Origin: Erpobdella octoculata
Lineage: Eukaryota; Annelida; Clitellata; Hirudinida; Erpobdellidae
Reading direction: 5' to 3'
Assembly: GCA_963978895.1 (NCBI GenBank)
Contig: OZ022238.1
Span: 3,241,161 to 3,305,160 of the forward strand
DNA: 64,000 nt
The translations under genes and the position numbers were made by a program. Below are positions 27,215-62,042 of the stretch, one piece after another (the stretch's first letter is position 1; each line of letters opens with the position of its first letter). The notes beneath the pieces are model-generated. The model was not told the origin of the DNA. It did not search any database and saw nothing but the letters and a program-made list of their open reading frames with translations.

Positions 27215-28647
27215 TAGGGTTGTTACAGTTACTGAATCTAAAACTGAAACATTCAGTTAACTGAATCTTTTTAGATTCAGTAACTTCAACTGAAACTGAA
27301 ACTGAATCTTTTTTAAAAACTGTAACTGAAACTGAATCTATTGAGAAAACTGAATATAACTGAATCTTTTAGAATGAATATTTTTTATCATTTTATTATA
27401 TTATTTTTATGTTTGCGGTTAAATGTTTTGATTCTATGGCACGGACGATAACTCGGTCGAAGTTAGGAATAGTTCTTTCTTTTTGTTTCGTGTTAGTGTT
27501 CTGTTGCTTGCGTTTTTTTTCGAAGATTTTCAAGTTTTTAGAATTACCAGAATGGAAGATACTTGTGTTAGTAGTAACATTGTTATGGACGAATCTACCG
27601 AGGAAGAAGTATCGTTTATTCAACAAAATGAGTCGGAATCTGCTTTAGGACCTCCAACGAAAAAAGCTAGATTCAACAAAACAAGGCCTATACTAACCCG
27701 GTACATAAAATGTTTACAGGAGTTGGAGCCGATATTAAGTGCAATATTTGTTCTGTAATTTTGAAAGGTAAAAATGTCAAAAATTTAGAGTCTCACTTGA
27801 GGAAGCATGAAACAGAATACGCAGAGTATTTAGAGGAAAAAAATAGCTATGATATCAAAAACACAAAGTAAGTCTATTAAACGACCCTTTTCATATTTGA
27901 AAAACCAGGCAACAATTGAAAACTGTTTTGTTGTTAAAGAACGCAAAAATGACATTAAAAAAGGCTCCAATGCCTATAATAAGGCTGCCCATGCTATCGC
28001 CTCAGCATTTGCTGCAAACAGTTCGCCATTTCTTTTGATCGAAGACCTTCTATTAAAAATATGTTTGCAGTTGTGTCGGAAGGTCGTTTACTAACCTTGC
28101 CGAACAAACACGATATATCCACAAAAGTGTCCGAATTAGTAAAAGAATTAAAAAGATCTGTTGAATTATCATTGAATTCAGCGAAGTATGTGTCAATCAC
28201 AACAGATGGTCTCGGCCATGTTATTCATCGGTAAGGATGGGAATAACTTGCCATTATTTTGATCGAAACATCAATAAAATAAGAAGAGCTCTTCTGACTT
28301 GTAGAACAATTACGCAACCCCATACAGGCTTTGCTCTTAGCAGATGTTGGCATAATTTGGGTGACGACAAGCTGGAAGCTGAAGTCTTTTATAAATTCAA
28401 GAAGGAATTTTTAGGCTAAATACATTTTTTAAACATGTCTGTGTTGCAAAATGTTTTTTATAGTAAATTTCTTCTTGGTAGTTTACCTAAAAAAATTGAA
28501 AAAAAAAACTGAATCTAACTGTAACTGAAACTGAAACTGAATCTTTAAAGATTCAGTTTACTGAAACTGAAACTGAATCTTTGTAAAGTTTCAGTTACTT
28601 TAACTGAAACTGAAACTGAATCTTTTTTCAAAACTGTAACAACCCTA
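27215..28647. mobile_element. hAT DNA transposon, internally deleted, nested in the LINE
   Basis: 14-bp terminal inverted repeats TAGGGTTGTTACAG / CTGTAACAACCCTA are flanked by a perfect 8-bp target duplication GCCCTAAC (27207-27214 and 28648-28655), diagnostic of hAT. Subterminal AACTGAAACTGAATCT repeats occur at both ends. Inside are remnants of a BED zinc finger (CNICSVILKG...HLRKHE, about 27735-27815) and of a hAT transposase in several frames. The transposase is broken, so the copy is non-autonomous. Confidence 0.9.
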
Positions 28648-28665
28648 GCCCTAACCAACAAGACG

Positions 28666-31170
28666 ATGAATTTATTGTCAGTATACAGAAGTCCCAATTC
28701 CAGTGGTGCGAATAATGACCTTCTCATCCAGTTACTTGAGGAGTTCATTTTATTGAGAGGTGAACATGTTATTATTGGTGATTTCAACTTCCCGGACATT
28801 AACTGGAATACCTTTAGTTGCAACGGTTCAGCTGAGAAGATTGAAAATAAATTTCTTAATTTCTTAAATGACAGTTTTTTGCTTCAACATGTTGATGAGC
28901 CTACTAGGAGGGCTGCCAATCAAACTTCAAGCGTCCTGGATCTGGTGATTACCTCTGGCGACAACATCACTGACATTCAATATTACTCTCCGCTGGGGAA
29001 TGGTGATCATTCAATCTTGGGGTTTAAATTGGTTGGTTTCACAAAGAATTTGAGGCCGGACGAAAAGAGATTTTGTTATGAACTGGGTGATTATGGTGGT
29101 CTTAGCATGGCTCTGGATGAGTGTTTGTCTAACACTGACAGACCTCTGGAGTCCTCTGTGGATTCCGAATGGAGGTTTTTTCGCAATACTCTAAATGAAC
29201 TCACAAGTCGATTTGTGCCTAAAAAGCAGATTTACAAGAAGTTTACCTTTCGGATGACACCTGAGCTGAAATGTCTCATTGAATTAAAACATCAGCTTTG
29301 GAGAAGGATTTACAAATATGGAGATGACATAATGACTGAGTTCCGAGTAACCAGAGATAAAGTCAAGAGATTGTCAAAACAGCTCAACATCGAGAGTCAG
29401 AGCCGTATTGCCTCAGAGTATAGAACCTGTCCGAAGTTGTTTTGGAGCCGTGTTAAAAAAATTACCAAGGTTAAAGAGAGTATTGGTGTTCTAAATGTTG
29501 ATGGTACTGACTTAATGTGTGACAGAGATAAAGCAGAAGCACTCGCTAAATTCTTCTCGTCGGTTTATGTACGGGAAGATCTCTTTGAAGGCGATGATAC
29601 ATTTCACCCAATTGTGCCGGCTTGTGGAATGACAGAATTGAAAATTGATAGTGGCATTGTTGAGAAAAAATTGATGGCCTTGAACAGGGGAAAGTCTGCG
29701 GGGCCGGATGGCATACATTCAAGAATCTTGAGCGAAACAAGACTGGTTTTAAATGAACATTTGTTGAGGATTTTCAGAACATCATTGGCTTCGGGGGTGG
29801 TTCCATGTGATTGGAAGTCAAGTGTTGTGGTTCCGTTGTATAAAAAAGGTAGCAAAGCTAAGGTCGAGAACTACAGGCCAATAGCTTTGACATCAGTATG
29901 TTGCAAAATTCTCGAGTCAATTATTAAAGACCACATTATGAGCTACTTTTTGCAATATGATATCTTCACTCATAGACAGTTTGGATTTCTTCCTTCACGC
30001 TCTACGGTCCTGCAGTTGCTGAAGTTCCTGGACGAAGTTACTCTCTCGGTTGACTCTGGGTTGGAGGTGCATACAATCTACACCGACTTAGAAAAAGCTT
30101 TTGACAGAATTCCACACAAGAGACTCTTGTTTAAGATGAAGGAGTATGGAGTTCATCCAATATTGATAGAATGGATCAGAAGTTACTTGACGGAGAGATC
30201 ATTCAGAGTTCAGTTGAGGGGCGGACTCTCTGATTCCTTTCCCGTGTTGAGTGGTGTTCCTCAGGGAAGCGTGTTAGGTCCATTGTTATTTGTGATCTAT
30301 ATCAATGACATTTGTGGTGTTAGCGAAAACATCTACCTTTTCGCGGACGACGCCAAGTTGTTTAGACCGATCGCGGACTTCAAAGACACTCGGAAACTGC
30401 AGTCCGACATTTATAAATTGCAGCAGTGGTTCACAAGATGGCAAATGACAGTGAATCCATCTAAATGTTGTGTTTTAAAGGTTGGAGGTAATCGTTTTGC
30501 AGCGGATTACTATATGCAAGATACATCAGGTTTGTCTGTTGTGGTTCTTGAAGTTAGCTCGGTTACTGATCTAGGAATCATACTGGATTCAAAATTGAAA
30601 TTCAGAGACCATGTGTTCTCTAGAATCAAAAAGGCCAATTCCTTGTTGGGTATAGTTGGAAGAACTTTAAAATATCTGCCTGATGATGCTTTTGTAACAT
30701 TGTACAAATCTCTGATTAGATCTCAATTGGAGTACGGAGTTCAGATTTGGAGTCCTCACGGGCGTGGTCTGATTGAAGAACTCGAAAGGGTTCAGCGAAG
30801 GTTTACCAGAATGGTCAGGTCATGCAAAGGTCTCATTTATACGGAGAGGTTGAAGAAACTCAGATTGCCTTCCCTGACATATAGAAGAAAGCGAGCCGAC
30901 CTAATTCTTCTGTATAAAATGAAGTCTGGTCAGTTGATGGATTGCCACTGTCCGGGGTTGACCCTTTGCCCTGACGAAAGAACTAGGGGACATGAGTTCA
31001 AGTTGGCTACTAGGTTGGCTCATAAAGATTGCAGGATGTATTACTTCAGTAACAGAGTGGTGGACGACTGGAATCGGCTCCCTGGGCCGGTGGTGTCTGC
31101 TGAATCGTTGTCTTTGTTCAAATCACTTTTGGATGATTTTTTTGGTGATATTCAATTTGATTTTGCTTAG
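28666..31170 (+). CDS. LINE ORF2: endonuclease C-terminal part and reverse transcriptase
   Basis: An 834-codon open frame. The N-terminal part has GDFNFPDINW and SDHSILGFKL-type endonuclease ends (here GDHSILGFKLVG). The RT follows with KSAGPDGIHSRIL, ENYRPIALTSVCCKILE, RQFGFLPSRST, YTDLEKAFDRIPH, SGVPQGSVLGPLLFVIYIND and the catalytic FADD box (LFADDAKLF), then SQLEYGVQIWSPH. These are the RT blocks of CR1/Jockey-type LINEs. It is uninterrupted, but its 5' part is cut off by the hAT insertion, so the element cannot make full ORF2 protein. The long intact frame suggests the LINE is young. Confidence 0.85.
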   Translation: MNLLSVYRSPNSSGANNDLLIQLLEEFILLRGEHVIIGDFNFPDINWNTFSCNGSAEKIENKFLNFLNDSFLLQHVDEPTRRAANQTSSVLDLVITSGDNITDIQYYSPLGNGDHSILGFKLVGFTKNLRPDEKRFCYELGDYGGLSMALDECLSNTDRPLESSVDSEWRFFRNTLNELTSRFVPKKQIYKKFTFRMTPELKCLIELKHQLWRRIYKYGDDIMTEFRVTRDKVKRLSKQLNIESQSRIASEYRTCPKLFWSRVKKITKVKESIGVLNVDGTDLMCDRDKAEALAKFFSSVYVREDLFEGDDTFHPIVPACGMTELKIDSGIVEKKLMALNRGKSAGPDGIHSRILSETRLVLNEHLLRIFRTSLASGVVPCDWKSSVVVPLYKKGSKAKVENYRPIALTSVCCKILESIIKDHIMSYFLQYDIFTHRQFGFLPSRSTVLQLLKFLDEVTLSVDSGLEVHTIYTDLEKAFDRIPHKRLLFKMKEYGVHPILIEWIRSYLTERSFRVQLRGGLSDSFPVLSGVPQGSVLGPLLFVIYINDICGVSENIYLFADDAKLFRPIADFKDTRKLQSDIYKLQQWFTRWQMTVNPSKCCVLKVGGNRFAADYYMQDTSGLSVVVLEVSSVTDLGIILDSKLKFRDHVFSRIKKANSLLGIVGRTLKYLPDDAFVTLYKSLIRSQLEYGVQIWSPHGRGLIEELERVQRRFTRMVRSCKGLIYTERLKKLRLPSLTYRRKRADLILLYKMKSGQLMDCHCPGLTLCPDERTRGHEFKLATRLAHKDCRMYYFSNRVVDDWNRLPGPVVSAESLSLFKSLLDDFFGDIQFDFA

Positions 31171-31506
31171 GATTTTTATTTTGCTCTGTTTGTTTTTCGT
31201 TATTTTTTGTTGTATTTGTTTGCGCGTTCAGTTTGTGTTTATATTGTTCGGCGAGGGGCTTGCCCGTGCCTGGTTTATAATAATATAATGCCCAAAACTA
31301 CATCAGAGGGGCCCACTCAAAACCCCAAATTAACGTCTCTGCTAGCGCATGCAGTTTTTTGCATTTGACGAGGTCACAGTTGGTGTGGCTAATTAAAGAA
31401 TTCAGAAGTAAGTTTACGCTTCCAGTTACTAATCTCATGAATACGTTTATTCGTTGCTCTACGCTACCTGTTCAACACAAGAGAACCGTCGAATGACGTC
31501 CTCAAA

Positions 31507-33253
31507 TCAAGAAAGTAGAACTTGATTCCTCTGTTCAAAGAAATTACTGCTCAATAACTCCTTCATATAACTTATGTGCTTGTTGGCTTCATTTGTGACT
31601 AGTTCACATTGACCGATTTGATCGTGTTGTGCAGTCGTGTCAGGTTTAGTTTGCCAGTTTGGAGCGGGCTTAATTAAACGAACACGTCTATCTAAAAACC
31701 TATAAAAACTAATTTAAAACAAAAAAAAAGAACTCTCAAATATTATAATGAAATTCAGATTACTACCTCACTAGAGATGAGAGAACTTGCACCATCTTCT
31801 CCAGTTCTACTATTAACAACTTGGGACAAAGGATTGTAAGATTCTTGTGCTATCGATGATTGCTTGAGGTCATTCAAGCTTTGTGTGGGAAACCTTAGTT
31901 TAACCAAAGTAGTTTGAGCGTCTGGAAGAATTTTAGATTTTGGAATGAAGAAGCCATTAGAATTAGACAGCAGACTGGTGGTTCCATCAACCGGAGTTTT
32001 GCTCACAAATGATGAGGACTCGATGTCCATTGGTTTGATTAGATTCTCATTAAAGTCATTGTTTGACATTCTTCCGGTCAGAGTGTCGCTGAAATTCACA
32101 ATGTTTTCGCTATCAGTGATGCTTTGTTGAATTGCATTTTTGTTCTCATAAGACGAGTGTACATCGTCATCTGGAGCATCCCCTGGAATACAATTCAGCA
32201 CGGCACGACCGTCACGCCTTTCTGAATCCTCGTTGTCGGCAAGTTTCAAACCCGATCGATGAGAACTGAGGACATTTCGAACAGGTTCATTAGCGTCAGC
32301 TTGCAGGCACGTTTTTTCGTCTGAAAATTTTTCGACCCGATCGTTGGGTTTTTCGTCAGAGTTACTTTCTTGCCGAGAGTTATCCGATGTGTTTGCCGAT
32401 ATTTTTATATTCTGTTCGTTGATTAAATACGACTCTCTTGAATCATTTCCATCATCATCATCTTCTAGCTCCATTTTTATCTCTGTGTCAAAATAGCCGT
32501 CTTGTGTCTCCTGCCTGCTAGCAAGCGTCTGGCTCAGATCTCCTGCACAGGAAACTGCAAGGTTTGATGAAATAGATGGAGACCCACCACTGTTAGTAAA
32601 CGAGTTGTCAAAATAGCTGTTATCTTCATCTTCACTATCAGTTCTTGGTCTTTTGATGGCATCGAATGCAGATGTTTCAGAATCTCTTGAATCATTTTCA
32701 TCATCATTTTCTGGCTCCACTTTTATCAACGTGTCACAACAACCACCTTGTGCTCTCTGCTTGCTAGCAAGTGTCCAGCTCAGATTACCTGCCCGTGACA
32801 CTGTGAGGTTGGATGAAAAAGACGAAGTCCCATTACTGACGGCCGACGAGTTGTCAAAACAACTTTTGCTATCATCTTCACATGCCTGTTCGTTATATAT
32901 GATGTAGTTGGTAGGTTGTCCTGCTAAGCTTATAATGCCTTTTGAATCCGAAGCGCAGGGGTAGCTCTTGTTTGAACCGTCGGCAGCAAACTTATTAAAG
33001 GTCCAGCTTGGGTCGAGGTCGCTGACCCGGCGAAATTCTCCGAGGTAGCGGGGCTGGGTGCTGTCCGTATTCGAAGAAAGCCGCTTTATGTGAAAGCTCT
33101 TTTGAGCAATGTTGTTGCTGCTGAATGCAAGAACAACCATTTGTTGTTGCTGACACTGCTGCTGTTGGGGTTTTGGGAGAAGTGGCACCAGCTGGTTCGT
33201 TTTCTTGACCTGCTTCTGAACGGGTAGATCACCAAACTTTCCTGCCTGTATTG
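31507..33253 (-). CDS. Duplicated 3' part of the nuclear receptor (copy A, no DBD)
   Basis: Two exons, 31772-33253 and 31507-31691, match 39440-40906 and 39175-39359 of the complete receptor with the same phases and splice sites. The large exon encodes the Gln-rich start (QQQQCQQQQM), Ser/Asn/Asp-rich low complexity and two diverged internal repeats, each containing a sumoylation-like IKxE motif (IKVEPE, IKMELE). Both exons remain fully open despite many substitutions and a 15-nt length difference. No DNA-binding exon lies upstream, because the duplication breakpoint is at 33332. Either a recent pseudogene or a DBD-less isoform with its own start. Confidence 0.55.
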
Positions 33254-33421
33254 CTTTGAACCAAACATAATGGAATTATAACCATTAAATGTTTTTGTAT
33301 CTAAAACTTTAATTAAACTTCAAATTTAACAAGTAAACTAAAAACGAATTTTGCAATCAATTTTTTCTTATATTACTCTTTTATTTTATATTAAAGTCGC
33401 AATATACAAAAAGAATAGGCT

Positions 33422-34042
33422 TTAACCTATTCTCATTTGTTGATAACGTTGCTGGTGGCGAATTCGATCTTGTCGTAAGCGGTATTCTCGTTGTTCAATC
33501 GTTTCAATTTCACGTAGATGTGACATGCTGATGCGAACACTTTTCAAGCGTTGTGTGCGTTGCTCAGGAGTTTCATTTTCGCGTCGTTGAGAGTGACTTA
33601 AGCAGTCCAGTTGAAGTCGTTGCGTGCGTTGCTCTGGTGTTTCATTTTCGCGCAGTTGTGACATGCTGATGCGAATGCGTTCCAATCGTTGTAAGCGTTG
33701 TTCAGAAGTTTCATTTTCGTATCGCTGTGAGTGTCGAATACGATCCTGATCCAATCGATATTCACGTTCTTCTGATGTTTCATTACCGCGCTGTTGTGAG
33801 TGTCGAATACGATCCTTCATTAGTCGTTGATCACGTTGCTCTGATGTTTCTTGACTACGTAGTATGTGCAATTTATCCAATTTGATTCGCTTTTCCTCCT
33901 CAGTCTCATTTTGACGCTTCTCATGATACTTTTCTCTTGCTTTCACCAATCTGCTCTTCCTTTGAGTAGAGGTTTCCACTCGTTGAGTTCCACTACCGTT
34001 CGATTGCTGACTACTACCGTTCGATTGCATAGGCAGTCGCAC
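33422..34042 (-). CDS. STPR-domain protein with six 23-residue repeats
   Basis: A 206-residue ORF beginning MRLPMQSNGSSQQSNGSGTQ. After a basic linker come six repeats of exactly 23 residues, each starting ET(S/P/I)EQR or ETSEER and holding RL....R at fixed positions (for example ETSEQRDQRLMKDRIRHSQQ). STPR repeats form a basic helical DNA-binding array, and the Gln/Ser start may be an activation segment. It lies exactly between the two copies of the segmental duplication (33333-34294) and is in neither. It could be a host gene or a domesticated transposon piece, since Helitron-like proteins carry similar repeats. Confidence 0.6.
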   Translation of the reverse strand: MRLPMQSNGSSQQSNGSGTQRVETSTQRKSRLVKAREKYHEKRQNETEEEKRIKLDKLHILRSQETSEQRDQRLMKDRIRHSQQRGNETSEEREYRLDQDRIRHSQRYENETSEQRLQRLERIRISMSQLRENETPEQRTQRLQLDCLSHSQRRENETPEQRTQRLKSVRISMSHLREIETIEQREYRLRQDRIRHQQRYQQMRIG

Positions 34043-34711
34043 GAAATTTTCAAAATTAAAATTTCAATTTTTTTTTATTTATTTTAAAAGAAGTAAAGAA
34101 TAAAAACTCAAATCTGCAAAAATTTTTAAAGTACGACTTATATTTTTTGAGTTATAACAATTTTAAAGTCGCGAATCACGACACAAGACCTACCACGCTA
34201 GGCACTGAAAACAGTGCATATAGCTAACGTGAAGCTGAGAGATGAGTAAGCGTTATATTAATGCTGTCTAATTTATCAGAGCTATGAATTGGTTTTATAT
34301 TATAGTAATTATCTAGATTTGTTTCTACTATTGTAACTTGCTTGGTGTGTTTTTATTGTTAATTCATCTATTTATTTTTTTTAAATGGTATGATTTTTTA
34401 AGATAAAATAGAAATATAAAGAATTCACTTTTCATAGACTGAAATAGATTTGGCGCATTTAATTTATTTGCTTGGCCAAAGAAATCAATTAATTTTAATC
34501 TTGCATAAACCGCTGTGGTAATTTTTTATTTAAAGAATCTGTTTATTCGATGATGTGCATTTAATAATATTAATACTGATTAAGCTGAAAAATCAAACAA
34601 AATTAAAACCATTGTTTTCTTGGTGACATATGTGTGTTGAAAAAGTATTTTCTTGTACACTATGTACACGAGGGAAACATTGTACTGTTAAAGTCGTACT
34701 TTCTTTTCCAG

Positions 34712-35363
34712 TGTTTCACGTTTGCAGGGCAATATGAGGAAGTGATAGAGAGCTGGTACTATGAACATCAGGAGGAAGATAACCTCATCAGCTACCTCTG
34801 TGCCCAGAGGTTTCTCAAAGGAAAAGATCAACGTCAGTAAGAGCAGAGTTTCCCGATTTAAATTTTTTATTATGACATTTTTATTTATTATTATTATTAT
34901 TATGGGTAGTTGTTGATTGGATCTTTTTAAAATGTTGTTGTTTATTTCTATTTTCAGCATGGGCGTGTACTCCAATAATTTAGTTACGGGTACAGTGTTA
35001 GCTTTGTCCTTTTAATCAACTTTTTTGAGAAATTTTCCAGGTTTTGTACCCTTCTACCAGTCATTGACTATGTCTCCAATATTGAACATAAATCTTCACC
35101 CCTTGCTTTCAGTGCATGATATGCATCTGTTCCTTGCTACTTTATTATGTTCAGTGTGATAATAATAATAATAACAATAATTGTGTGACCTCACTAAATG
35201 TTGACGACACCATTTTTTAGAATGTCTTCAAGAGATCTTCTTTCCTAAAGGTGACACAGGAAGTTCTGAAGAAGAAGAAGACAAACAGGAGTCCAAAAAG
35301 CAAAGTAAATTTTTATTTTTATTACTTAACATCTATTTATAGTTTAAATTTAGAGTTTTCTTG

Positions 35364-35421
<58 letters not shown>

Positions 35422-36079
35422 GTATGTATATGTATGTGTGTGTATTACTTGGCATTTATTTATAGTTTGTTTTGTCAAATGTATATTACTTGACATCTAT
35501 TTAGAGTTTGTTTACATGTTTTCAGTTATATGTAGCTTTAATGCAATTTTTTTAACCCTGTATTGGATTTTTTGCCCCAGTATTTTAATTCCATTGCTCA
35601 GGTATATACTTTCTAATCATACATAGTATGCAAATTTTGATCTTAAAAATTTTTTTTTTATTGTACCAAAGATGAAATCTAGTTTCAGAGCTGCAAGAAT
35701 TAAATATAACCTTAAATTATAAGAAATCACTACCTCCCGAAAATTAAAGTTTTACCAGTTTTACGATTTTTACTTTTCATAAGAGAACGCAGTGCCAAAA
35801 CCTAAAGGCGACAAAAGTGGCGCAAAAAGAGAATCGACTTTATCGACAACAACCAATGAAGAGCAACGAAGTTCCGATCCTCAACGAGATGATCGAATGA
35901 AAGATGAAGATAAAGAAAGAAGGTTCAAGAAAGGAGACAGTTCGAAATCGGACGAGATGTTTACCGGAGATCACGTGACTCCCGAGCCGGAAATCGTTTC
36001 CGGTGAGATACCGAGACCTTACCACGTTCCAGTGACGTCACCTTTGCCAAAGACGGGTAGGATCGACGGGGATTTATAA
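34712..36079 (+). pseudogene. Orphan CNPY 3' exons (copy B)
   Basis: Exons 34712-34832, 35221-35304 and 35793-36079 duplicate CNPY exons 5-7, with intact frames, splice sites and stop, but no exons 1-4 upstream. The first exon reads [20 protein letters not shown]. The tail adds TLS residues absent from the parent. Without a signal peptide or the saposin-like first half, a functional product is unlikely; preserved frames indicate recent origin. Confidence 0.7.
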
Positions 36080-37103
36080 GACGAAGAAAGACGTCTTTTT
36101 GGACCGCAATGTATTTTTGTTCCATTTTTTTATTATTAATTTTGTATTTAATCCTTTTGCGTTTCAGCGGAAAACTCAGTCATAGTCAGCAGTTTCATTA
36201 CTCTTTGAACTTTTGTCTGTTCATTACCTTTTTGATGCAAAAGTTCAACTATCTGAAGTCGTCTTTTGCATTGGTGTGAGGACACTAGCTCGTATTCAAG
36301 AATGTTAGGTTATCTAATTTTAAATTCATTTGACAGAAGGTTGCCTAGTCATCCCCAGGTAACTGCATGAATATTCATTCATGAAGTTAGTTCATCCAGG
36401 TAACTTCATGAATATTCATTCATGAACATTCATTCATGAACATTCATTCATGAACATTCATTCATGAAGTTAATGTAATTTCATTTTTTGTAATATTTTG
36501 ATTTAAATTTACTTTGACCATCGTACAAATACTACGAATGTCTGTGTCCGAATTTTCGCTAACTGCTGTTAATTCTATTTTCTAAATATCTGTACCCTAA
36601 CCATACATTCATACTCAAGAAAATATTTAACCTTGGACTTGCCTATTTTTAATATTCACTCCATCAAAAACGCGCCCACTATATGGTTCTCTTCAACTTT
36701 TTCTTGTAATTTATTCAGTGAATTATATAGTAAACAATAACTATTTAAACCATGAGGAAATATGTAAATAAATTCAGAAGCCTGTTCAATATGACACATA
36801 ATAACCCCCTTTTGAACCATTCAGTTAGCATTCCCACCATGAAATCTTCCTCGGGGTATTTCCTTCTATACAAATTACTAGTTTCTTGTTAAATACTGTA
36901 AAGTTACACTTGTATACAATGAACATTTTATAAGAAGAGAAAGACAGAGAGAGAGAGAGAGAACATTTTATAACAATAATAAAATTCTACAAATTTAAAG
37001 ACTTGGAAAAATCTCAATGGTAGTAAGTAAAAAAATGCCCTTATGACCAACTTGCACATAACAGAAACCTGTCTAAACGAAGAAAACATTCACTTCATCG
37101 TCA

Positions 37104-37250
37104 TTAATGAATTCGCTCTAAGGTAACAAAACATTTCCTAATCTTATGTTTTAGAGTGATTTTCATCTTTTCAATTTCTTGATCTTTTTGTACCAGGAGG
37201 GCCTTTAAATATTCTATCTCCTGTTGTTGCTTTGAATATTCTTGTTGAAG
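37104..37250 (-). CDS. Coiled-coil 3' exon (copy B), gene unidentified
   Basis: Near-identical counterpart of 24576-24722, with the same acceptor, frame and stop. LQQEYSKQQQEIEYLKALLV forms the coiled-coil start. Its parent transcript is unknown. Confidence 0.4.
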   Translation of the reverse strand, partial: LQQEYSKQQQEIEYLKALLVQKDQEIEKMKITLKHKIRKCFVTLERIH

Positions 37251-37879
37251 CTGAATAAACAAGAAAAAACTTAAAGTAATATTACTTTTATCACCATTTA
37301 ACATCTCAAAACCCAATGCCTCAGATCATAAGTAGGGGACATAACTTACACGGCCCAAAAAGCCATCGATTATTGTAAACTCAGTGCAGGCTAGCCCTTT
37401 TGCCATGAACAAATGAAGCTAAAGCCCACTCCAAATCAACAAACTTGGGTCAAAATGACCCGAACAAACATGTCATATTCGGTACTGTCGGAGCTTGTAA
37501 ATGGGATATTATAGATTTGCGACTCCAAATGCCTGGAATTTGACTCGATTGTGCGTATTTCCCTGTTAAACGGTTTGTGCCATAATCTTGTACAACTTCG
37601 GACAGGGCCAACACATCGACATAGGCACACCATTGTGGTCGCCATTACACAGGCACTTATTAACAGCTTAAAAGTTCCTTCACTTTCTGATCATTCTGTC
37701 ATTACATTCTCAACTTGTCCTAAAAAGTTGAACGTCACTGCTATAAAGCATTCAAGTGGACAGCTTTCGTAACTGATTCGAAACAAGTCCAAGCAAAAAA
37801 CAAAGTTTTTAAAATACACGCTTTTATATTTTACATAATGCAAAACGATTTCTATATGCAATAATAGTCTTACCATTGT

Positions 37880-38299
37880 TTATAGTAATATTTTAGTCAA
37901 AATTTTAACACATTTTTGACTATCTTTTGTTTTTTGAGAAGGTGAAGTATGTTGTCGTTGTGTGTGACGATCTCGATCCTTTCGCATACGGTCGTGTCGT
38001 TGTTGCCGTGACTCGTTGACTCGCACTCGAGTGTGGCGCTCTCGATCTAGCGTCAATCGACGTTCGCGCTTCTCAGACGTCTCTCTTTCGCGAGCGGCAG
38101 CGTGCCGTACGCGATCGCGGAGACGTCTCAATTCGCGCTGCTCTTCTGTTTCGTTTGCCCTCTGCTTGGAACGATCTTGGCTGTCTTTGGCTAGTCTTGC
38201 TCGTTCAGAAGGTGGGCTCTCGTTCGCTATCTTCTCGAGCCGCTTTTGACGTGCCTTTTCTAGACGGCGTTCTCTCTGCTGCGGAGTTTCTCTAGTCAT
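37880..38299 (-). CDS. STPR-repeat protein, copy B
   Basis: 139 residues starting MTRETPQQRERRLEKARQKR. About four 23-residue repeats follow (ESPPSERARL, ETEEQRELRRL, ETSEKRERRL, ESRQQRHDRM), then a Gln/Ser/Lys tail. This is the longer version of 25357-25650, which has lost the last repeat. It sits downstream of the receptor on the same strand. A function in sequence-specific DNA binding is inferred from the STPR class. Confidence 0.5.
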   Translation of the reverse strand: MTRETPQQRERRLEKARQKRLEKIANESPPSERARLAKDSQDRSKQRANETEEQRELRRLRDRVRHAAARERETSEKRERRLTLDRERHTRVRVNESRQQRHDRMRKDRDRHTQRQHTSPSQKTKDSQKCVKILTKILL

Positions 38300-39174
38300 T
38301 TTCTAACATGAAAAGTATATAAAATTGAACAAGATCATTAGGACAGAATATATTGTATTATCCTAAGATGAAGTCCTGTTTCGAAGTTTGGTACCAACTT
38401 TGATTATATTGCTGTGTGGGTACAATTTTTTAAGGCTGCACTGATGATGAAATGGCAAAATACAGTGTGCAAATATTTACAATTATTTCAATGTTTTTAA
38501 TAAAAATCAATAAATTTCATACGCTGCATACTACAATGCAATAAATATTGAAATCGCTTAGAAAATGATTGAATATTGTTTTTGTAGGTGGCTAAAGTCT
38601 AACATTAAGTCAAACAAGCAAACTTATCAAAATTTTGACTAAAGTATTAATATAAGCAATGGTCAAACTATTATTGTATTTAGAAATCGATTTGCATAAT
38701 GTAAAAATATAAAGTGTGTTTTTAAACTTTGTATTTTTATTTATAATAGTTCGTAGTCCTTTACATCAGATGTTTAAGACTGAAATGGCTATATGTAGGA
38801 AGCACCTAAGTACTTCCTGTCGTGGATCATAATTTGATCCTTTTAACTTCAAGGGGCCATCATACATAAAAAGAACCCACTCAAACCTTAAAAGCTTCCA
38901 CTTAACACTTCCGAGGGCATTTCAGGGATCCAATTTCTATGTTTTAGGTGCCCAAAACTACATCAGAGGGGCCCACTCAAAACCCCGAATTAACGTCTCT
39001 GCTAGCGCATGCAGTTTTTTGCATTTGACGAGGTCACAGTTGGTGTGGCTAATTAAAGAATTCAGAAGTTCAGAAGTAAGTTTAGGCTTCTCGTTATTAA
39101 TCTCATGAATACGTTTATTCGTTGCTCTAGGAAACCTGTTCAACACAAGAGAACCGTCGAATGACGTCCTCAAA

Positions 39175-42100
39175 TCAAGAAAGTAGAACTTGATTCCTCT
39201 GTTCAAGGAAATTACCGCTCAATAACTTCTTCATATAACTTATGTACTTGTTGGCTTCATTTGTGACTAGTTCGCATCGACCGATTTGATCGTGTTGCGC
39301 AGTCGTTTCAGGTTTAGTTTGCCAGTTTGGAGCGGGCTTAATTAAATGAACACGTCTATCTAAAAACCTATAAAAACTAATTTAAAACACAAAAAAAGAA
39401 CTGTCAAATATTATAATGAAATTCAGATTACTACCTCACTAGAGATGAGAGAACTTGCACCATCTTCTCCAGTTCTACTATTAACAACTTGGGACAAAGG
39501 ATTGTAAGATTCTTGTGCTATCGATGATTGCTTGAGGTCATTCAAGCTTTGTGTGGGAAACCTTAGTTTAACCAAAGTAGTTTGAGCGTCTGGAAGAATT
39601 TTAGAGTTTGGAATGAAGAAGCCATTAGAATTAGACAGCAGACTGGTTGTTCCATCAACCGGAGTTCTGCTCACAAATGATGAGGACTCGATGTCCATTG
39701 GTTTGATTAGATTCTCATTAAAGTCATTGTTTGACATTCTTCCGGTCAGAGTGTCGCTGTAATTCACAATGTTTTCGTTATCAGTGATGCTTTGTTGAAT
39801 TGCATTTTTGTTCTCATAAGACGAGTGTACATCGTCATCTGGAGCATCCCCTGGAATACAATTCAGCACGGCACGACCGTCACGCCTTTCTGAATCCTCA
39901 TTGTCCGCAAGTTTCAAACCCGATCGATGAGAACTGAGGACATTTTGAACAGGTTCATTAGCGTCAGTTCCCAGGCACGTTTTTTCGTTTGAAAATTTTT
40001 CGACCCAATCGTTGGTTTTTTCGTCAGAGTTACTTTCTGATGTGTTTGCCGATATTTTTATATTCTGTTCGTTAATTAAATACGACTCTCTTGAATCATT
40101 TCCATCATCATCTTCTTCTAGCTCCATTTTTATCTCTGTGTCAAAATAGCCGTCTTGTGTTTCCTGCCTGCTAGCAAGCGTCTGGCTCAGATCTCCTGCA
40201 CACGAAACTGCAAGGTTTGATGAAATAGATGGAGACCCACCACTGTTAGTAAACGAGTTGTCAAAATAGCTGTTATCTTCATCTTCACTATCAGTTCTTG
40301 GTCTTTTGATTGTATCGAATGCAGATGTTTCAGAATCTCTTGAATCATTTTCATCATCATTTTCTGGCTCTATTTTTATCAACGTGTCACAACAACCACC
40401 TTGTGCTCTCTGCTTGCTAGCAAGTGTCCGGCTCAGATTACCTGCCCGTGACACTGTGAGGTTGGATGAAAAAGACGAAGTCCCATTACTGATGGCAGAC
40501 GAGTTGTTGAAACAACTTTTACTATCATCTTCACATGCCTGTTCGTTATATATGATGTAGTTGGTAGGTTGTCCTGCTAAGCTTATAATGCCTTTTGAAT
40601 CCGAAGCGCAGGGGTAGCTCGTGTTTGAACCGTCGGCAGCAAACTTATTAAAGGTCCAGCTTGGGTCGAGGTCGCTGATCCGGCGAAATTCTCCGAGGTA
40701 GCGGGGCTGGGTGCTGTCCGTGTTCGGAGAAAGCCGCTTTATGTGAAAGCTCTTTTGAGCAATGTTGTTGCTGCTGAATGCAAGAACAACCATTTGTTGT
40801 TGCTGACACTGCTGCTGTTGGGGTTTTGGGAGAAGTGGCACCAGCTGGTTCGTTTTCTTGACCTGCTTCTGAACGGGTAGATCACCAAACTTTCCTGCCT
40901 GTATTGCTTTGAACCAAACATAATGGAATTAAAACCATTAAATGTTTTTGTGTCTAAAACTTTAATTAAACTTCAAATTTTAAAAAAACGACATTATATA
41001 CCATTTCTGGACATGTTATGTGCGAGACATTTCTGGTACCTGCAGTAACCACACGAAGTCTTTGTATCGACATTGATGGTGCAAGTTTTGTTGTTCTTGC
41101 AAACAAAAATACGACTTTTGCTCATTACCTGACTGAAGAAGGTCTACAATGAAGAGAATTGATTTCAGAGATGTCAAAATCAATTAGAAGATTTCTAGGC
41201 CATCAATCCATAAACACTTTTTATCTTCATACTCACTTAATTTAATGCCATACGATTTTAAAGCAGCATTTATTAGCTGTCTTAAAATAAATATTTAAGA
41301 AAATAATTAAAATTTACATTGACTAATTTATTTAAAAAGTTGATGAATACCTGGCAACTTTTACACGTGGGCACACCGTAATGAATTCCATGGGCAGCGT
41401 CAGAGCAAATAACGCATTTTTGTTGTTCGTCCCGCGAAAGAACTATCGGGGGCCTTCCCAGCTGTATCGCTTTAACCAAACACAATCAAATTACAAACAT
41501 TTAATTTTTTTTATTTCGAAAACATCCTTAAACTCCACACACATTAAAAAAAAAATTATACCATAAAAGTTAATAAAACTCCATACTAAAAAATAATTAT
41601 TAGGGCTGGGCCGGTTATTGGCAATACCGGCAAATACCGGTTCCGCCGGTATTGAACAATCGGCATTCAGCACATCACGCATAAAATACAAAAAAGTAAA
41701 AGACCTACAGTAGCATTATGGGCAGTGCAATTTACCTGTATGCCCATTGTTTGTTACACTTCAATTACGGACAACGGTTCTTAGCAAAAGCATAGCACTA
41801 ACGGTCTAGCACCGTTTAGCTTTGTTAACTCAACCATGACTAATTGTAGTTTAGTTTAGTTTTATCGTCAGAGTTTGCGACCGACTGCGGACGGTAACAC
41901 TAACGCAGTTTAAAACACTATTTCTAGCCATTTTCAGGCTTTCGACATTATACCGGTACCGGTAATACCGGTTTTTGGCCCGGAAATACCGGTACCGGCA
42001 GAAAAAAACCATACCGGCACAGCCCTGATAATTATATACCTTGTTTGGACATGTTATGTGCGAGACATTTCTGGTACCTGCAGTATCTACAGACTTTCCT

Positions 42101-45100
42101 TGTTACAACATTGATAGTGCAAGGTGTGCTACTATTGCAAACGTAAGTGCGGTATTCATGCATTCCTCTTTTGAAGAAGTTCTACAATGAAGATAACTGA
42201 TATCTGATATGTCAAAATTAATTACAAATACTTATTTATTTTATTTATTTATTAATTATTATTATTATATTATTACTAGCTGACCCAGCAAACATTGTTT
42301 TGCCTTTTAAATTATTTTGGTCTTTTTTATTAAGTTTAATGTACAAAATTATGACAATTTAAAAAAATCAATCTCGAAAAGCAATCGAATGTACAATGCC
42401 CGGGTTTTTGAAAGTTTTTTTATCGTTCTTCTTTCTTGCTCCCGTTTCCTTCCCTGCTTGCTCTCCCGTTTGCTCTCTCGTTCCCGTTTACTCTCCCGTT
42501 TCCGCTTCTTTTCCCGTATATATATATATACTAGCGGGGTTACCCGGCGTTGCCCGGAGTTTTTAGAGGTTTTTCTAATGTTTGTCTCTCTCGCTCCCGT
42601 TTCCTTCTCCACTTTCCCGTTTTCGTCGCGTTCCCGGTAGCTTTTCCGCTCTCGGTCGTTTTCCAGCTCCCGATCGCTTTCCCGCTCAGAAGATTTGTTA
42701 TCGATTTTCTCTCTTGCTCGCGTTTCCTTCCAAGCTTGCTCTCCCGATTCCAGTCGCTTTCCGCGTTCCCGGTCGCTTTCTGCTTTCCCGTTCCCGGTCG
42801 CTTTCCCGTTCCCGGTCGCTTTTCCGTTCCCGGTCGCTTTTCCGTTCCCGGTCGCTTTTCCGTTCCCGGTCGCTTTCCCGTTCCCGCTCACGCTTGCTCT
42901 CCCGTTCCCGGTCATGCTTGCTCTCCCATTCCCGGTCACGGTTGCTCTCCTGTTCCCGTTCCCGTTCGCGCTCATTTTCTCTTTTCCATTCTTTCATAAC
43001 TTCTGTTAGACTATAAAACGTAAAATAGATTTGCTAAGACTATATATATATATGAATGTTTGTGGGTTAGTTTGTCTATTATAGAAACGGGAAAGCGACC
43101 CGGAACGGACAGCGAGCGGGAACGGAAAAGCAAGCGTGAGCGGGAATGGGAGAGCAAACGTGAGCGGGAACGGGACAGCGACCGGGAACGGGAAAACGAC
43201 CGGGAGCGGGAAAGCGACCGGCAGCGGTAAAGCGACCGGCAGCGGGAAAAGGACCGAAAACGGGAAAGCGAACAGGAGTGGGAAAGCAGGTGGGAAAGGA
43301 AACGGGAGAGAAAGAGACAAACATTAGAAAAACCTCTAAAAAACCCGGGCAACGCCGGGTATCTCCGCTAGTACATACATAAACACACACACACAGACAC
43401 ACATACACATACATACATACACACATACATACGCATATACATATATATATAGTTCCCGCTCGCTCACCCGCTCCGCTCATTTTGTGACGGATTTCAAAAA
43501 AAATTTCTCTATATTTGATTCCCCTTGACTCTCAAGGTTGTGTGAAAATTTCATTACGATCGAATGAATGGTGTAGCAATGCATGAATACAATACCTATA
43601 TACATACATACATACAAACATTCATTTTTATATATATAGATATATATATATATATATATATGAGTTTCTGTTTGTTTGTTTGTCTCTCTGTCTGTCTGTT
43701 TGTCCTTTGTTTTTCTAAAATAACTTTTTTAAATAATTTAAAAAAAATATTCTAAATAGCCATGGACCTATCCTCAGACCTACCAAATGTACACAAAAAA
43801 TTTCATAAAAATCGGTTCAGCCGTTTCGGAGGAGTTCAATTTCAAACACTATGACACGAGATTTATATATATATATATAGATTTATGCTTTTGAGAACAT
43901 TATGAGAAACATGTAAACATTTGTGATAATAACAATTTAATGTGAATATTTCTAGGCCATCAATCCATAAACACTCTCTATTTTCATACGTGCTTAATTT
44001 AATGCCATACAATCTTAAAGTAGGATTTATAAACTTTCTTCAAGAAAAATTGTAGAAAAGAATAAAAATTTACTTTAAATAATATAAAAACAAAAAAACT
44101 TTAAAAATTTAAATATAAAATGTTAATGAGATATATGTTGAAGGATACCTGGCAACTCGTACACGTGATCGCACCGTAATGTAATCCGTCGGCATCGTCA
44201 GAACAAACCACGCATTTCCGTGGCTTTTCCCGTACGGCGGCTTTCATCGGGTGAACTGACGATCCATTCGAAAACGATGTTTCAAAATTTAGCATCACAG
44301 ATAATTTATAAATTAAAAAAAAAGAATTTACATCATAAAAAAAATACATTTTTTAAAAAACAACGTTTTCTTGCCCCCTAAAAAGTATAAAATAATATTC
44401 CTATAATTCGTGTACAATGAAAAACGTTGCGGGCGTATTATTTTTTATAACTATTTGTTTTACTAAAGTTTTTGATGTTGTAGCCTATAATGCGCCTGCA
44501 ACGTTTTTCGTTGTATATAAATTATAGGAATATTATTTTATACTTTTTAGGGAGCAAGAAAAAAGTTATTTAAAAAATGTATTTTTTATGATGCAAAAAT
44601 TAATTTCTACTTTTTCGTTTTTGATGGGTGAAATTTTGTAAGCAATTTGAGTTTTTTTGTTTTTTTCACTAGGTTTTCCAAGACAAACAAAATCTCAAAC
44701 AAATACACAAACAGAAAACTAAGTGACCCAATAAAAACGTTGTAAAAAATAAATATGGCATAAATATCAGCCATCTTGTAAGAATGATGAACTCGAGTGT
44801 TGCCCCCAAAAAATGAATTTTTAAAGTTTTATGAATGAGTGTCTATGTAAAACCACTAAAATATGTCGATGTAAAAACCTCAGTCTTAAAACTCAACGAG
44901 TTGTAATTAAATGGATCGGGACAAATAATCCTCTACTAATGAAAGTTCCCTTCCGACATATTCAAGTTCAGAGCCCTAAAAAAGTTAAAACAAATTTACT
45001 TCAAACCACATTTACTTCTACAACAACAAGCTGGTCCAGAACCGTTTCCACAGCTGCCTTTGGACCCAAACTCCCAACCCAACAACCATGATGCCAGACA

Positions 45101-48100
45101 AATACTGGCAGACGACACCCTGTTTCCTATCTGATTTGACCTAGATCACCAGCAGCAAACCTGAACTGGCTACTCTCCTTTCTTCAGGGCAGAACCGACC
45201 ATCAGACCTTCAAGGCACCTGTTTATCCTCATCAATTTCTCATATTTGTTTTGGATTTCAAACAAGTATGTTTCAGAATCATGTCCTTCGTTTTGAGAGA
45301 TTGCTCTAGTCTTTACACAGTGAGTCTTTCTAGTTTCTCATGTTAAGGTCTTGCTTCATAGGCTGTTATTTCAGCTCAGTGAATTCAAGTCCATACAATG
45401 TGTCCAAAACCAATTTTTAATTGATCTGCTTCTGACACCAATTGTTACAATATTAAGGGTTCTAAAAAATGACTTAGACTTAGGTTTATTGGATAATAAG
45501 CTGCCTAACTTAGACGATAATATTTTTCAACCATTTAACATTTTCATATCTAAAAGTTAATGAAACTTTAAAAAAATTCTATACCTTGTTTGGACATGTT
45601 ATGTGCGAGACATTTCTGGTACCTGCAGTATCGGCATGAATACTTTGTGTCTATATCGATGGTGCAATTTTGGTTATTCTTGCAAACATAAGTGTAGCTA
45701 TTTTTCAAACCTCTGTTGAAGAAGTCCTACAATGGAGATAATTGATTTCAGAGATGTCAAAATTACTAACAAATACTTTTTTATTTTATTTAATGTGAAG
45801 ATTTCTAGGCCATCAACCCATAAACACTTTCTATTTTCATGCCCACTTAATTTAAAGCCAAACAATTTCAAAGCAGGATTTATTAGCTTTCTTCAAGAAA
45901 TATTGAGAAAGAAGTAAAATTTACTTATAGTTTAAATAAAAAAAAAAACTTTAAAAAATTAAATAAAAAATGTTGATGGATGATACCTGGCAACCTCTAC
46001 ATGTGAGCGCACCATAACGAATCCCAAGGGCATCGTCAGAGCAAATCACGCATTTTGATCGCCCTTTGGAAATAAAAAAAAAAACAGATGTGGTCCACAT
46101 ATCAGCCATCTTGTTTGAATAAAAAACTTATGTTTTATCCAAAAAAATGTGTTTTATGTCAATGTAAAAACCTCAGTCTTAATAAAATACAAAGCTTATG
46201 TTTACATGTTCACCACATGGTTATACGGTGACCGGATAAAACGAGCCCGGTCAAAACGTCACGATTGAAATGTTCCAAATAAAATGTCCCGGTCAAAATG
46301 TCCCCGGTCAATATATCCCCACTCAATATGTCCTTTGTCAAAATGTCCCTGGTAAAAATTTCCCCAGTCAAAATGTCCCCGGTTAAATGTCCGGAACTTT
46401 CTATCTAAGATATATTCATCTTAGAAATAAATTGGGTAACTGTTTATTTTTTGTTTGTCGAAACCTTTTTAATTTTTTTATGGCTAAAAAACCTATTCCA
46501 GGCCAACAGTGCCTATGTACGAACATAACAAGTTAATTCAGAACGAAATTCAAATTTAATTTGCACAACAAAGTTTAAACAAGTAAGCCGTAAAAACAAG
46601 GTTTTTTAACAAATCCCTTATTTTTCAGGATTTGCCGGCTTTTCATTTATTGCAAATTTCTATCTTGAAACAAAATTTTTTGAATTTATATATGCAAAAC
46701 TCTATGCAATTGTGTTTGATTTGTTTTGGTTTTAAAACATAGATAATTATTATTTTAAATTAAAAATAATATTTTTCAGAAAGTTGTCAAACTTCATGAA
46801 GAGTGAGCCTATGTTTCAAATTTCAGCTCCATTGTTCTTCCCCGGGAAGATAGTAAAATTTCATTTTCAAAATTTTCAAACATTCAAGCAAGCAAGCATT
46901 CACCAGTTTTGTTTGCTTGCTTGAATGTTTGCAAATTTTGAAAATGAAATTTTACTATCTTCCCGGGGAAGAACAATGGAGCTGAAACTGGTGAAGTTAA
47001 TATAAGGGAATTAAAAAAGATTTAAGCATTTTTATCATATCTGCTATTTATTTTACATTTACATTACAGCGGCCCAGGGAGGGCAGGTCAAACACCACCC
47101 CCCCTCCCACAAAAAATTAACAAGGGAAGGGGAAAAAGAAAAGGAGAAAAAAGAAATTGAGAGAGAAAAAGAGAAAAAGTGAGAAAAAGAGAGTGAGGAA
47201 AAGGGAGAAAGAGGAAGAAGGAGGGGAAAAGAAAATAGATAAGGAAAAAAGAAAGAGTGAAAGCAAGAGGGAGAAACCAGAGAAAACCTTAAAAACTCCG
47301 GTCAGAGTCGGGTAAACCTGCTAGTTGAATTATTTTATGAAGCAGAAATATCACAAAAGAATAATATACCACGTTTCCTGGTCATTCCAGCTTCCACGCA
47401 CTTCTTGTACCGGCATTTCTTGCAGCAGGTTCTATGCGCCGGTGTGATCAAGCAGTTGTTTCCATCACACACGAAGGTATCCCCCATGTTGGCATACTTC
47501 CCGAAAAAAACCTGAAAAATGTGTTCAAATAAATACGATTCTTAAATTTAAAGTCAACTATTTTACGAGAATCTAAAGGTTTATCCACTACTGACACTTC
47601 GTTGACACGGCTTAGAATGTCGATAAAATCGTGAAGTAGTTGAAAAACCTGCAAAGCAGTTGATAAGCTTGTGAAACAGTTCAGAAACCTGCAAATCAGT
47701 CGATAAACAGTTGAGTCTTCACGTTAAATTAAAAGAATAAAAGCAGCACAAGAGATGCGAGCACAACGCATCATTCGCAGCCTTTCACGACCCTTGCGTA
47801 TGCGACTTGCTGACAGGATAATCAACTGCTTCAAAGGATAATCAACTGCTTCAAAGGATAATCGACTGCTTCAAAGGATAATCAACTGCTTCAAAGGATA
47901 ATCAACTGCTTCAAAGGATAATCAACTGCTTCAAAGGATAATCAACTGCTTCAAAGGATAATCAACTGCTTCAAAGGATAATCGACTGCTTCAAAGGATA
48001 ATCGACTGCTTCAAAGGATAATCGACTGCTTCGCTATTTCATCGACTGCCTCAGTCGACCCGATAAACCTTTAGGATATCTTATTTTAAATGGCAACCTT

Positions 48101-48570
48101 TAGTCTTTAATTCATTAAAACATTAAATGACATCATTACACAGTGGTGCTCCCCATGAACAAACACCCCGTTTATGACTCTCTCTCTCTCTCTCATTTCC
48201 GACAGTTTTTTCGCTTACAGATTGGTTTTCAAGTCCGACTAACGTCCCCCCCCATTTAAGAACCCCTTTTTTACAACCTGATTTTTGGGCCATTTTCAAG
48301 GTCATAAAAGGGGAGTACCACTGTACATATACGCAATTTTCATACCTTGCAAGAACCGCAAACATCAGCTCCAAAGCATTTTACGGTGGCCAAATTGGGA
48401 CACACGGCACAGAGCTTCACCTCTTTGGCAGCATCTTCAGATGTTTGACTGGTTCTACTGTTTTCGACATTCTGCTGCTGTTGCTGATTTTCTTGGAGTT
48501 GCTGCTGCTGCTGATCTTGTTGAATCTGTTGTTGCTGCTGCGGATCTTGTTGAATCTGTTGTTGCTCCAT
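39175..48570 (-). CDS. Nuclear receptor with four tandem DNA-binding domains
   Basis: Ten exons join in phase: 48346-48570, 47370-47511, 45987-46063, 45585-45726, 44149-44255, 42040-42181, 41351-41469, 41002-41143, 39440-40906, 39175-39359 (about 915 aa). The Gln-rich start (MEQQQIQQDPQQQQQ) is followed by four zinc-finger pairs. First fingers are C-X2-C-X13-C-X2-C in all four. Second fingers are C-X5-C-X9-C-X2-C in DBD2-4 and C-X4-C-X9-C-X2-C in DBD1. P-box sequences are CGSCK, CRGCQ, CTSCQ and CKSCQ, unlike the usual CEGCK. DBD2-4 end in CRYQKCLAHNMS. Then comes a 490-residue Ser/Asn/Asp region with IKxE motifs. The last exon ends FLEQRNQVLLS; no ligand-binding domain is recognised. Exon structure and phase are identical in each DBD. 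Partner and target are unknown. Confidence 0.8.
41601..42027. mobile_element. hAT-type MITE next to a receptor splice donor
   Basis: Ends TAGGGCTGGGCCGG and CCGGCACAGCCCTG are imperfect inverted repeats flanked by the 8-bp duplication ATAATTAT (41593-41600 and 42028-42035). Subterminal ACCGGTA words recur at both ends. It lies within the intron, a few bases after the 5' splice site of the DBD3 second-finger exon (donor 42039-42038). Confidence 0.85.
42279..43893. repeat. Composite dispersed repeat carrying the foldback-like element
   Basis: Starts ACTAGCTGACCCAGCAAACA and ends near AAATCGGTTCAGCCGTTTCG, then a TATATATATAGAT tail. Such termini are widespread in invertebrate genomes as ends of short dispersed elements. 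Inside are a partial FB1 left arm (42400-42520), the complete FB1 copy 2, and microsatellites. It occupies the intron between the two exons of DBD3. Confidence 0.6.
42530..43372. mobile_element. Foldback-like element FB1, copy 2 (inverted relative to copy 1)
   Basis: Begins ACTAGCGGGGTTACCCGGCG and ends CGCCGGGTATCTCCGCTAGT. It is the reverse complement of 383-1277, with fewer 18-bp units in the long arm and more in the short arm. The centre again reads TAAAACGTAAAATAGATTTG. The flanking (TA)n and GAGCGGGAACTATATATA motifs are shared with copy 1. Confidence 0.75.
44330..44600. mobile_element. Palindromic MITE in receptor intron
   Basis: Two arms of about 110 bp are near-perfect inverted repeats: CTAAAAAGTATAAAATAATA with CGTTGCGGGCG toward the centre on one side, and CGCCTGCAACGTTTTTCGTT with TATTATTTTATACTTTTTAG on the other. 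It lies just upstream of the DBD3 first-finger exon (44149-44255). No coding content. Confidence 0.75.
44601..45584. other. Receptor intron, no element recognised
   Basis: Between the DBD3 first-finger and DBD2 second-finger exons. A short plus-strand ORF at 44831-45091 lacks any recognisable motif. I see nothing else to support. Confidence 0.4.
46220..46400. repeat. Degenerate tandem repeat of AAAATGTCCCCGGTC
   Basis: About ten imperfect copies of a 15-19 bp unit (CGGTCAAAATGTCCC) in the intron between DBD1 and DBD2. The style resembles the arms of the foldback-like elements in this window, but no matching inverted arm was found. Confidence 0.6.
46821..46987. mobile_element. Near-perfect hairpin of about 75-bp arms
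   Basis: TTTCAGCTCCATTGTTCTTC on the left pairs with GAAGAACAATGGAGCTGAAA on the right, and the match continues inward through TTCCCGGGGAAG-type and AAGCAAGCAAGC sequence to a loop of about 12 bases. No coding sequence. Probably a small MITE or an inverted duplication; in pre-mRNA of the receptor it would fold into a long stem. Confidence 0.85.
47110..47326. repeat. Purine-rich degenerate FB1 arm
   Basis: GAGAAAAAGAG-type purine repeats end in AAACCTTAAAAACTCCGGTC and GGGTAAACCTGCTAGT, the decayed terminus of the FB1 family. Confidence 0.5.
47810..48050. repeat. 20-bp minisatellite, about 12 copies
   Basis: Perfect or near-perfect copies of GGATAATCAACTGCTTCAAA (variants with CGACTG) in the intron between the two exons of DBD1. 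The high identity implies recent expansion. Confidence 0.9.
48139..48323. mobile_element. Short TA-flanked MITE
   Basis: Termini CACAGTGGTGCTCCCC and GGGGAGTACCACTG are inverted repeats flanked by TA on both sides (48137-48138 and 48324-48325), the pattern of Tc1/mariner or pogo MITEs. It contains a short CTCTCT run. About 185 bp, in the first receptor intron. Confidence 0.65.

Positions 48571-61988: not shown

Positions 61989-62042
<54 letters not shown>
61965..62042. repeat. (TA)n microsatellite
   Basis: TATATA run with a few interruptions, separating the stray CNPY fragment from the tandem array. Confidence 0.95.

Follow-up and report, generated by a model that had tools for sequence, protein, structure and literature searches.

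Nuclear receptors are known to carry a single DNA-binding domain (DBD), rarely two, and their recognition helices are highly conserved. Receptors of the knirps/NR0 type have one DBD and no ligand-binding domain (LBD), and the supplementary receptors of nematodes, a lineage-specific expansion, typically combine one DBD with one LBD per gene. Tandem DNA-binding modules that change at their DNA-contact residues and occur in paralogue clusters are a property of the KRAB zinc-finger genes and PRDM9. For group B of the two-DBD receptors (2DBD-NR), the description gives the P-box pairs LPCKS-EGCKK or EACKS-EGCKG and 17-22 residues between the two DBDs (PMC10497141). Homodimer formation is reported for relatives (PMC10497141, PMC1810520), and in passages of the former four DBDs appear solely as a homodimer. 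Here we describe a gene of Erpobdella octoculata (genome 386 Mb) in a 64-kb stretch of contig C1 (C1:3241161-3305160; hereafter the window). Its four DBDs lie in one frame and are likely spliced in series into one LBD-less protein, and the predicted DNA-contact residues of its family evolve as if positively selected, so the family probably serves as a rapidly evolving set of DNA readers.

The gene consists of four complete C4 zinc-finger pairs in one frame, encoded by eight minus-strand exons (48570-41002) and followed by a terminal exon:

48346-48570, minus strand: start exon with the ATG, a Gln-rich N terminus, DBD1 finger I and P-box CGSCK|V; donor GTATGA
47370-47511, minus strand: DBD1 finger II exon; 142 nt, phase 0-1, acceptor TTTTTCAG, donor GTATAT
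45987-46063, minus strand: DBD2 finger I exon, P-box CRGCQ|D; phase 1-0, acceptor CCAAAG
45585-45726, minus strand: DBD2 finger II exon; 142 nt, phase 0-1
44149-44240, minus strand: DBD3 finger I exon, P-box CTSCQ|N; phase 1-0, possible longer form from 44255
42040-42181, minus strand: DBD3 finger II exon; 142 nt, phase 0-1
41351-41469, minus strand: DBD4 finger I exon, P-box CKSCQ|T; phase 1-0, opens with AIQLGRP, which resembles a C-terminal extension (CTE), then an inter-DBD linker
41002-41143, minus strand: DBD4 finger II exon; 142 nt, phase 0-1
39423-40906, minus strand: terminal exon A, a hinge and a 494-residue tail with the psi-K-x-E-like motifs IKIE and IKME

Joined at GT-AG sites, these exons give 854 amino acids with no stop from the Gln-rich start exon to the terminal exon. 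An in-frame TAA, read in the sequence, lies directly upstream of the start ATG in the same exon, and the frame closes at the TGA at 39423, which leaves the open reading frame (ORF) 39175-39381 outside it. All eight donors are GTAT, the four finger-II exons are uniformly 142 nt long with phase 0-1, and first-finger exons 2-4 share phase 1-0. The Pfam zf-C4 scores of DBD1-4 are 54, 79.7, 82.4 and 75.3 bits at a cut-off of 21.1 (E-values 2.4e-14, 2.2e-22, 3.2e-23 and 5.2e-21), those of DBD2-4 taken with V at the exon junction, where the spliced residues are D, N and T. All four fit the two-finger C4 DBD pattern of the nuclear receptor superfamily (C-x2-C-x13-C-x2-C plus C-x5-C-x9-C-x2-C), with one deviation in DBD1 finger II, where x4 rather than x5 separates the first two Cys. 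A custom finger hidden Markov model (HMM) run over six frames of the window found all eight finger exons at E 2.7e-6 or better and no further match below E 0.8. The tail gave no Pfam match to an LBD, and a custom LBD HMM was negative in six frames of the window; of 14 database proteins held out for its validation, this HMM recognised an LBD in 10. The original prediction of eight minus-strand exons with four complete finger pairs and agreeing phases (1-0 and 0-1) is borne out by the 854-residue frame and the zf-C4 matches.

A paralogue lies about 42 kb upstream on the same strand (C1:3332132-3323218), its main blocks 92-96% identical to the window gene in DNA. Its order, DBD1, c2, c3, c4a, c4b and a terminal exon, amounts to five DBDs, and its frame, counted from DBD1's first Cys, runs open for 876 amino acids until the stop. 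Conservation extends to DBD1 and to part of the N terminus, the DBD1 finger II exon being 96-98% identical. The DBD2 finger I acceptor reads CCAAAG in the window and CTAAAG in the paralogue; for DBD3 finger I, an AAAG acceptor is common to both genes and a CAG|TT site occurs in the window gene only. The latter, which matches the consensus on contig C4, would start the third first-finger exon at 44255 and add five codons; this start was set aside in favour of 44240, since AAAG is the one acceptor present in the paralogue. With c4b, a better match than c4a, as the partner of DBD4, the four DBD pairs show 10 differences over 275 residues. The 12 P-box sites account for three of the ten (V23I in DBD1; T19R and N23Y in c3; p 0.006), and the addition of site 22 (Q22K) brings them to four on 16 sites (p 0.001). 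Between c4a and DBD4 there are six residue differences, none in the P-box. A single gene model with four DBDs, as first proposed, is supported by this five-DBD tandem paralogue of the same order and by the cassette groups that precede terminal exons on C4. That first proposal did not include the descent from 2DBD receptors, the missing LBD or the genome-wide family with its diversified P-boxes.

The family extends well beyond these two genes. A PF00105 scan, in which 150 of 420 candidates were scored, gave 151 matches in the genome, and most of those listed lie on C4 at 1.27-1.74 Mb. A finger-II DNA pattern matched 151 places in the genome, as against four for the reversed pattern; among the 100 places listed, 88 are on C4, seven on C1 (three in the window) and five on C2. 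Terminal-exon matches amount, by our own count, to 34 loci (27 on C4, three each on C1 and C5, one on C2) plus four fragments. In a 200-kb stretch of C4 (less 5 kb), 60 stretches match finger I and 61 match finger II. They are confined to the minus strand and mostly alternate, and each of 12 terminal exons there is preceded by a group of one to seven complete cassettes. An HMM with no Cys requirement found the zinc Cys spacing kept in 56 of 60 finger-I and 58 of 61 finger-II matches. The 56 finger-II exons found by pattern have AG before 55 and GT after exactly 142 nt in 55; the cassette patterns themselves, in both C4 samples, required the zinc Cys, an open frame and the finger-I donor, and the invariance of all three is by construction. 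Of the 13 terminal-exon loci in this stretch, all but a fragment near 1350 kb were aligned, and all 12 contain an [IM]K[MLI]E motif, as does the window gene; this motif would be a psi-K-x-E-like site of SUMO type. The terminal exon opens with AIQAGK, resembling the start of the DBD4 finger I exon. At C4:1350145 a finger-I exon is fused in frame to terminal-exon-like sequence, apparently a product of recombination.

Variation among the cassettes is concentrated at the P-box. In 51 C4 cassettes, left after one of 52 pairs had been excluded before counting, the most variable of 69 sites are 23 (3.60 bits) and 19 (3.25), followed by 9, 26, 29, 12 and 30, with site 20 in 14th place. The P-box averages 2.83 bits against 0.97 at other non-Cys sites (permutation p 0.0015), and the 51 cassettes display 42 P-box triplets; for the window's DBD2-4 alone a test of P-box variation is weak (p 0.03). 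Sites 19, 20, 23, 26 and 30 correspond to residues 458, 459, 462, 465 and 469 of the glucocorticoid receptor (GR), in or next to the recognition helix. Across 24 disjoint pairs, the ratio of non-synonymous to synonymous substitution rates (dN/dS) is 1.94 (1.45-2.67) at the P-box and 0.38 at all other sites; sites 9, 12 and 17 reach 1.78 (1.27-2.51) and the C-terminal helix 0.14. Random pairings give P-box medians of 1.85-2.12, or 1.91-2.22 when the P-box's own dS is used.

Where did the array come from? In a tree of 58 DBDs, DBD2-4 of the window form one clade (100/97), joined to the second DBD of a protein from the annelid Paralvinella (90/80), and this pair belongs to an open group that also includes RXRs, nhr-142 and further second DBDs. 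DBD1 falls among first DBDs, on a very long branch (length 4) with open forks, so that its placement is unsure. Given the position of the DBD2-4 clade beside a second DBD from an annelid receptor with two, the window gene is probably a 2DBD-type receptor with its second cassette multiplied. Three relatives, P0002 (Paralvinella, AIQMGRP), P0011 and P0016, have AI(K/Q)MGRP behind their second DBD. The first exon of DBD4 makes sense behind another DBD because its AIQLGRP resembles that stretch, and we infer that this exon is a CTE and a linker fused by unequal exchange. Of 164 database proteins taken from the best matches listed, within a limit on length, the custom HMM assigned a single DBD to 135, two to 27 and four to two. 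These last, P0001 (746 aa, from a 2.7 kb contig and perhaps a transcript) and P0019 (615 aa, with His in place of one finger-II Cys in its first DBD), have four zf-C4-like domains each, contradicting the initial claim that no receptor with four DBDs was known. On C5, a DBD1-like exon (8772587-8772727, 76%), a finger-II match (8770465-8770602) and a terminal-exon match (8769757-8770236), all on the minus strand, mark a locus (8,769,757-8,772,727) that looks like a two-DBD gene and may be the founder. A DBD1-like finger-II match at C8:2235935-2236072 (60%) and a second finger-II match at C8:2242773-2242910 may perhaps represent a further two-DBD relative.

The multiplied cassettes have diverged considerably. 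Any two of DBD2-4 agree in 60-64% of their residues and 75-78% of their bases; because 22-25% of their bases differ they are not alleles, and for the DBDs a haplotype artefact was ruled out on the same ground. Their cassette-internal introns (45727-45986, 43924-44148 and 41144-41350) are 77-83% identical where alignable (140/183 to 173/208), more conserved than the synonymous sites of the exons, and contain a common near-identical stretch around TTTATGGATTGATGGCCTAGAAATCTTC. The internal intron of DBD3, with repeats inside it, measures 1967 nt against 260 and 207 nt in the other two cassettes. Over the last 15 codons compared, the proportion of synonymous differences (pS) is 0, versus 0.42-0.47 in the codons before them (per-pair Fisher p 0.03-0.075), a hint of gene conversion or of constraint on the nucleotide level. 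The 3' ends of the finger-II exons (41003-41047, 42041-42085 and 45586-45630) show little variation in DNA, being mostly TACTGCAGGTACCAGAAATGT or TACTGCAGATACCAGAAATGT, and among the matches listed this extends to the C1, C2 and C4 copies.

Serial inclusion of all cassettes in one protein is probable: DBD4, like c4a and c4b, has a CTE-like start, P0001 is a protein with four DBDs, and in the two-DBD ancestor a cassette already stood behind a DBD. Could the cassettes be alternatives instead? A constant DBD1 spliced to one or a few of them would yield several two-DBD receptors with different DNA preferences, and this main rival we regard as possible and somewhat unlikely. Every cassette (1-0, 0-1) is frame-neutral, so serial and alternative use would both preserve the frame, and any subset could be skipped as pairs. 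Alternative use would also preserve the two-DBD state of the ancestral protein; the first-finger acceptors look weak (AAAG), the P-boxes mostly differ within one cassette group, and a similar stretch upstream of the acceptor, common to many C4 first-finger exons, could act as a selector. However, a CTE-like start of DBD4 would be odd directly behind DBD1, the stretches before the window's DBD2 and DBD3 share short pieces only (120 of 232 aligned bases, with one 28-bp match), and a four-DBD protein, P0001, exists elsewhere; none of these points is decisive.

Production of DBD2-4 as single-DBD proteins from promoters of their own is very improbable. In-frame ATGs do stand before DBD2 (46109, in good context) and before DBD3 (44247, kept in the paralogue), but the former is out of frame in the paralogue, DBD4 has no in-frame ATG start of its own, and terminal exon A is the sole terminal exon between the DBDs and its copy, terminal exon B. 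That no exon of DBD2-4 has a good start of its own, as had been proposed, is true of DBD4 and untrue of DBD2 and DBD3. We also give very little credence to a decaying array, in which the cassettes would be functionless by-products of tandem and segmental duplication and their diversity drift. Terminal exon B without DBDs, some decayed cassettes and many repeats would suit such an origin, but dN/dS among DBD2-4 is 0.38-0.53 (NG86; dN 0.21-0.25, dS 0.46-0.55), in the main C4 set the C-terminal helix stands at 0.14 and the P-box near 2, and each splice site is kept in 55 of 56 finger-II exons. Hardly credible at all is an assembly artefact joining units of different haplotypes or loci, for although the two blocks that carry the terminal exons have 96% identity, in the allele range for a polymorphic animal, DBD2-4 differ at 22-25% of bases and lie between different repeats, the paralogue has the same order, and C1 spans 52.9 Mb.

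Several observations weigh against a serial protein from a positively selected family. The ATGs before DBD2 and DBD3 and the weak-looking first-finger acceptors are among them. The recognition helix of DBD4, CKSCQTFFSQ, lacks the usual K and R, so DBD4 may not bind classical half-sites. On C4, the groups reflect the order of stretches and not defined gene borders, some cassettes are decayed (the HMM matches without Cys spacing number 4 among the 60 for finger I and 3 among the 61 for finger II), and the 200 kb yielded no close relative of DBD1. Finally, a second C4 sample, drawn from plus-strand cassettes in five 10 kb stretches (17 of 20 kept, three excluded before counting; 8 pairs), gives a P-box dN/dS of 1.19 (0.70-2.14), which alone is not above 1. 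In that sample sites 19 and 23 again rank top, 16 triplets occur in 17 cassettes, and sites 26, 29 and 30 have a dN/dS of 1.76 (1.09-2.71). The small sample is no more than suggestive of a non-synonymous excess at the P-box, which the main C4 set shows clearly.

In the favoured reading, every recognition helix would have a short DNA site of its own, and the DBDs, being linked, would together recognise a longer composite one. Cofactors, probably of the repressor kind, would be recruited by the constant tail and its conserved psi-K-x-E-like motifs. Two-exon cassettes would be gained, lost and shuffled by unequal exchange, and selection would meanwhile alter their P-boxes, as in KRAB zinc-finger genes and PRDM9; mobile elements as the driving target are a guess. 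On the scale of the family, it is about as likely as not that nuclear-receptor DBDs have been built into a DNA-reading repertoire. Its roughly thirty loci would join as many as seven or eight cassettes to an unchanging tail, with P-boxes under positive selection and cassettes duplicated and exchanged, which would produce poly-DBD proteins for long, changing genomic targets. If so, the question is raised of which fast-changing target drives the P-box variants.

The surroundings of the gene are themselves duplicated and rich in repeats:

31755-33253, minus strand: terminal exon B, an intact copy with acceptor; no DBD of its own found within the window
34292-40980, unstranded: segmental duplication unit A (terminal exon and 3' flank), 88-96% identical to 21418-33327
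21418-33327, unstranded: segmental duplication unit B, split by an insert of about 5 kb (26178-31288) whose ORFs resemble long interspersed nuclear elements (LINE-like, by eye)

The tandem duplication includes no DBD, and terminal exons A and B differ at 19 amino acids in 493 codons plus one in-frame 5-codon indel. An STPR-like repeat ORF lies at 37883-38302 (Pfam STPRs E 0.007, below its cut-off), with further ones, seen by eye, at 25360-25653 and 33425-34063. The DBD1 intron contains a 60-bp tandem repeat (47815-48053), and a satellite of about 357 bp occupies 62015-64000 in direct and inverted copies that are 98-100% identical.

How new is such a system? Titles and abstract openings on multi-DBD receptors and P-box selection, a sample outside which most subscription papers fall, mentioned neither a receptor with three or more DBDs nor a repertoire of P-boxes. 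The window gene probably descends from the two-DBD receptors as a variant of them, whereas in its mode of evolution the family resembles KRAB zinc fingers and PRDM9. With 2DBD-NR group B the window gene shares the tandem DBDs with short linkers and a CTE-like AIQ.G behind the second-type DBD; its DBD2-4 also group, within an open part of the tree, with the second DBD of a Paralvinella protein of this type. The residues between its DBDs, counted after the last helix Met, number 8, 12 and 21, with borders that may differ from those of PMC10497141. Unlike group B, the window gene has four and its neighbour five DBDs instead of two, its P-boxes (GSCKV, RGCQD, TSCQN and KSCQT) differ from the pairs given in that paper, and its family is a large tandem expansion in which no LBD was found. 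P0001 and P0019 likewise have four zf-C4-like domains in one protein; however, their DBDs fall outside the DBD2-4 clade in a weakly resolved tree, and their linkers and tails are different. Knirps/NR0-type receptors also have a DBD and no LBD, but only one DBD, and the tree held no NR0 member. The supplementary receptors of nematodes are a lineage-specific expansion too, but are not known as cassette arrays.

The closest parallel in mode of evolution, one with no homology, is with the KRAB zinc-finger genes and PRDM9. The likeness lies in tandem DNA-binding modules, in clusters of paralogues and in an excess of non-synonymous change at DNA-contact sites, seen in the main C4 set and only hinted at in the second, smaller one; the difference is that those systems combine C2H2 fingers with other effector domains, whereas the window fingers are zf-C4. 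If the present interpretation is true, a C4 DBD can evolve like a C2H2 finger array, its P-box outpacing silent sites, and the dozens of naturally occurring P-box variants (the 51 cassettes display 42 triplets) would serve for decoding how a C4 DBD reads DNA. The family would then be the nuclear-receptor counterpart of the KRAB zinc-finger and PRDM9 systems.

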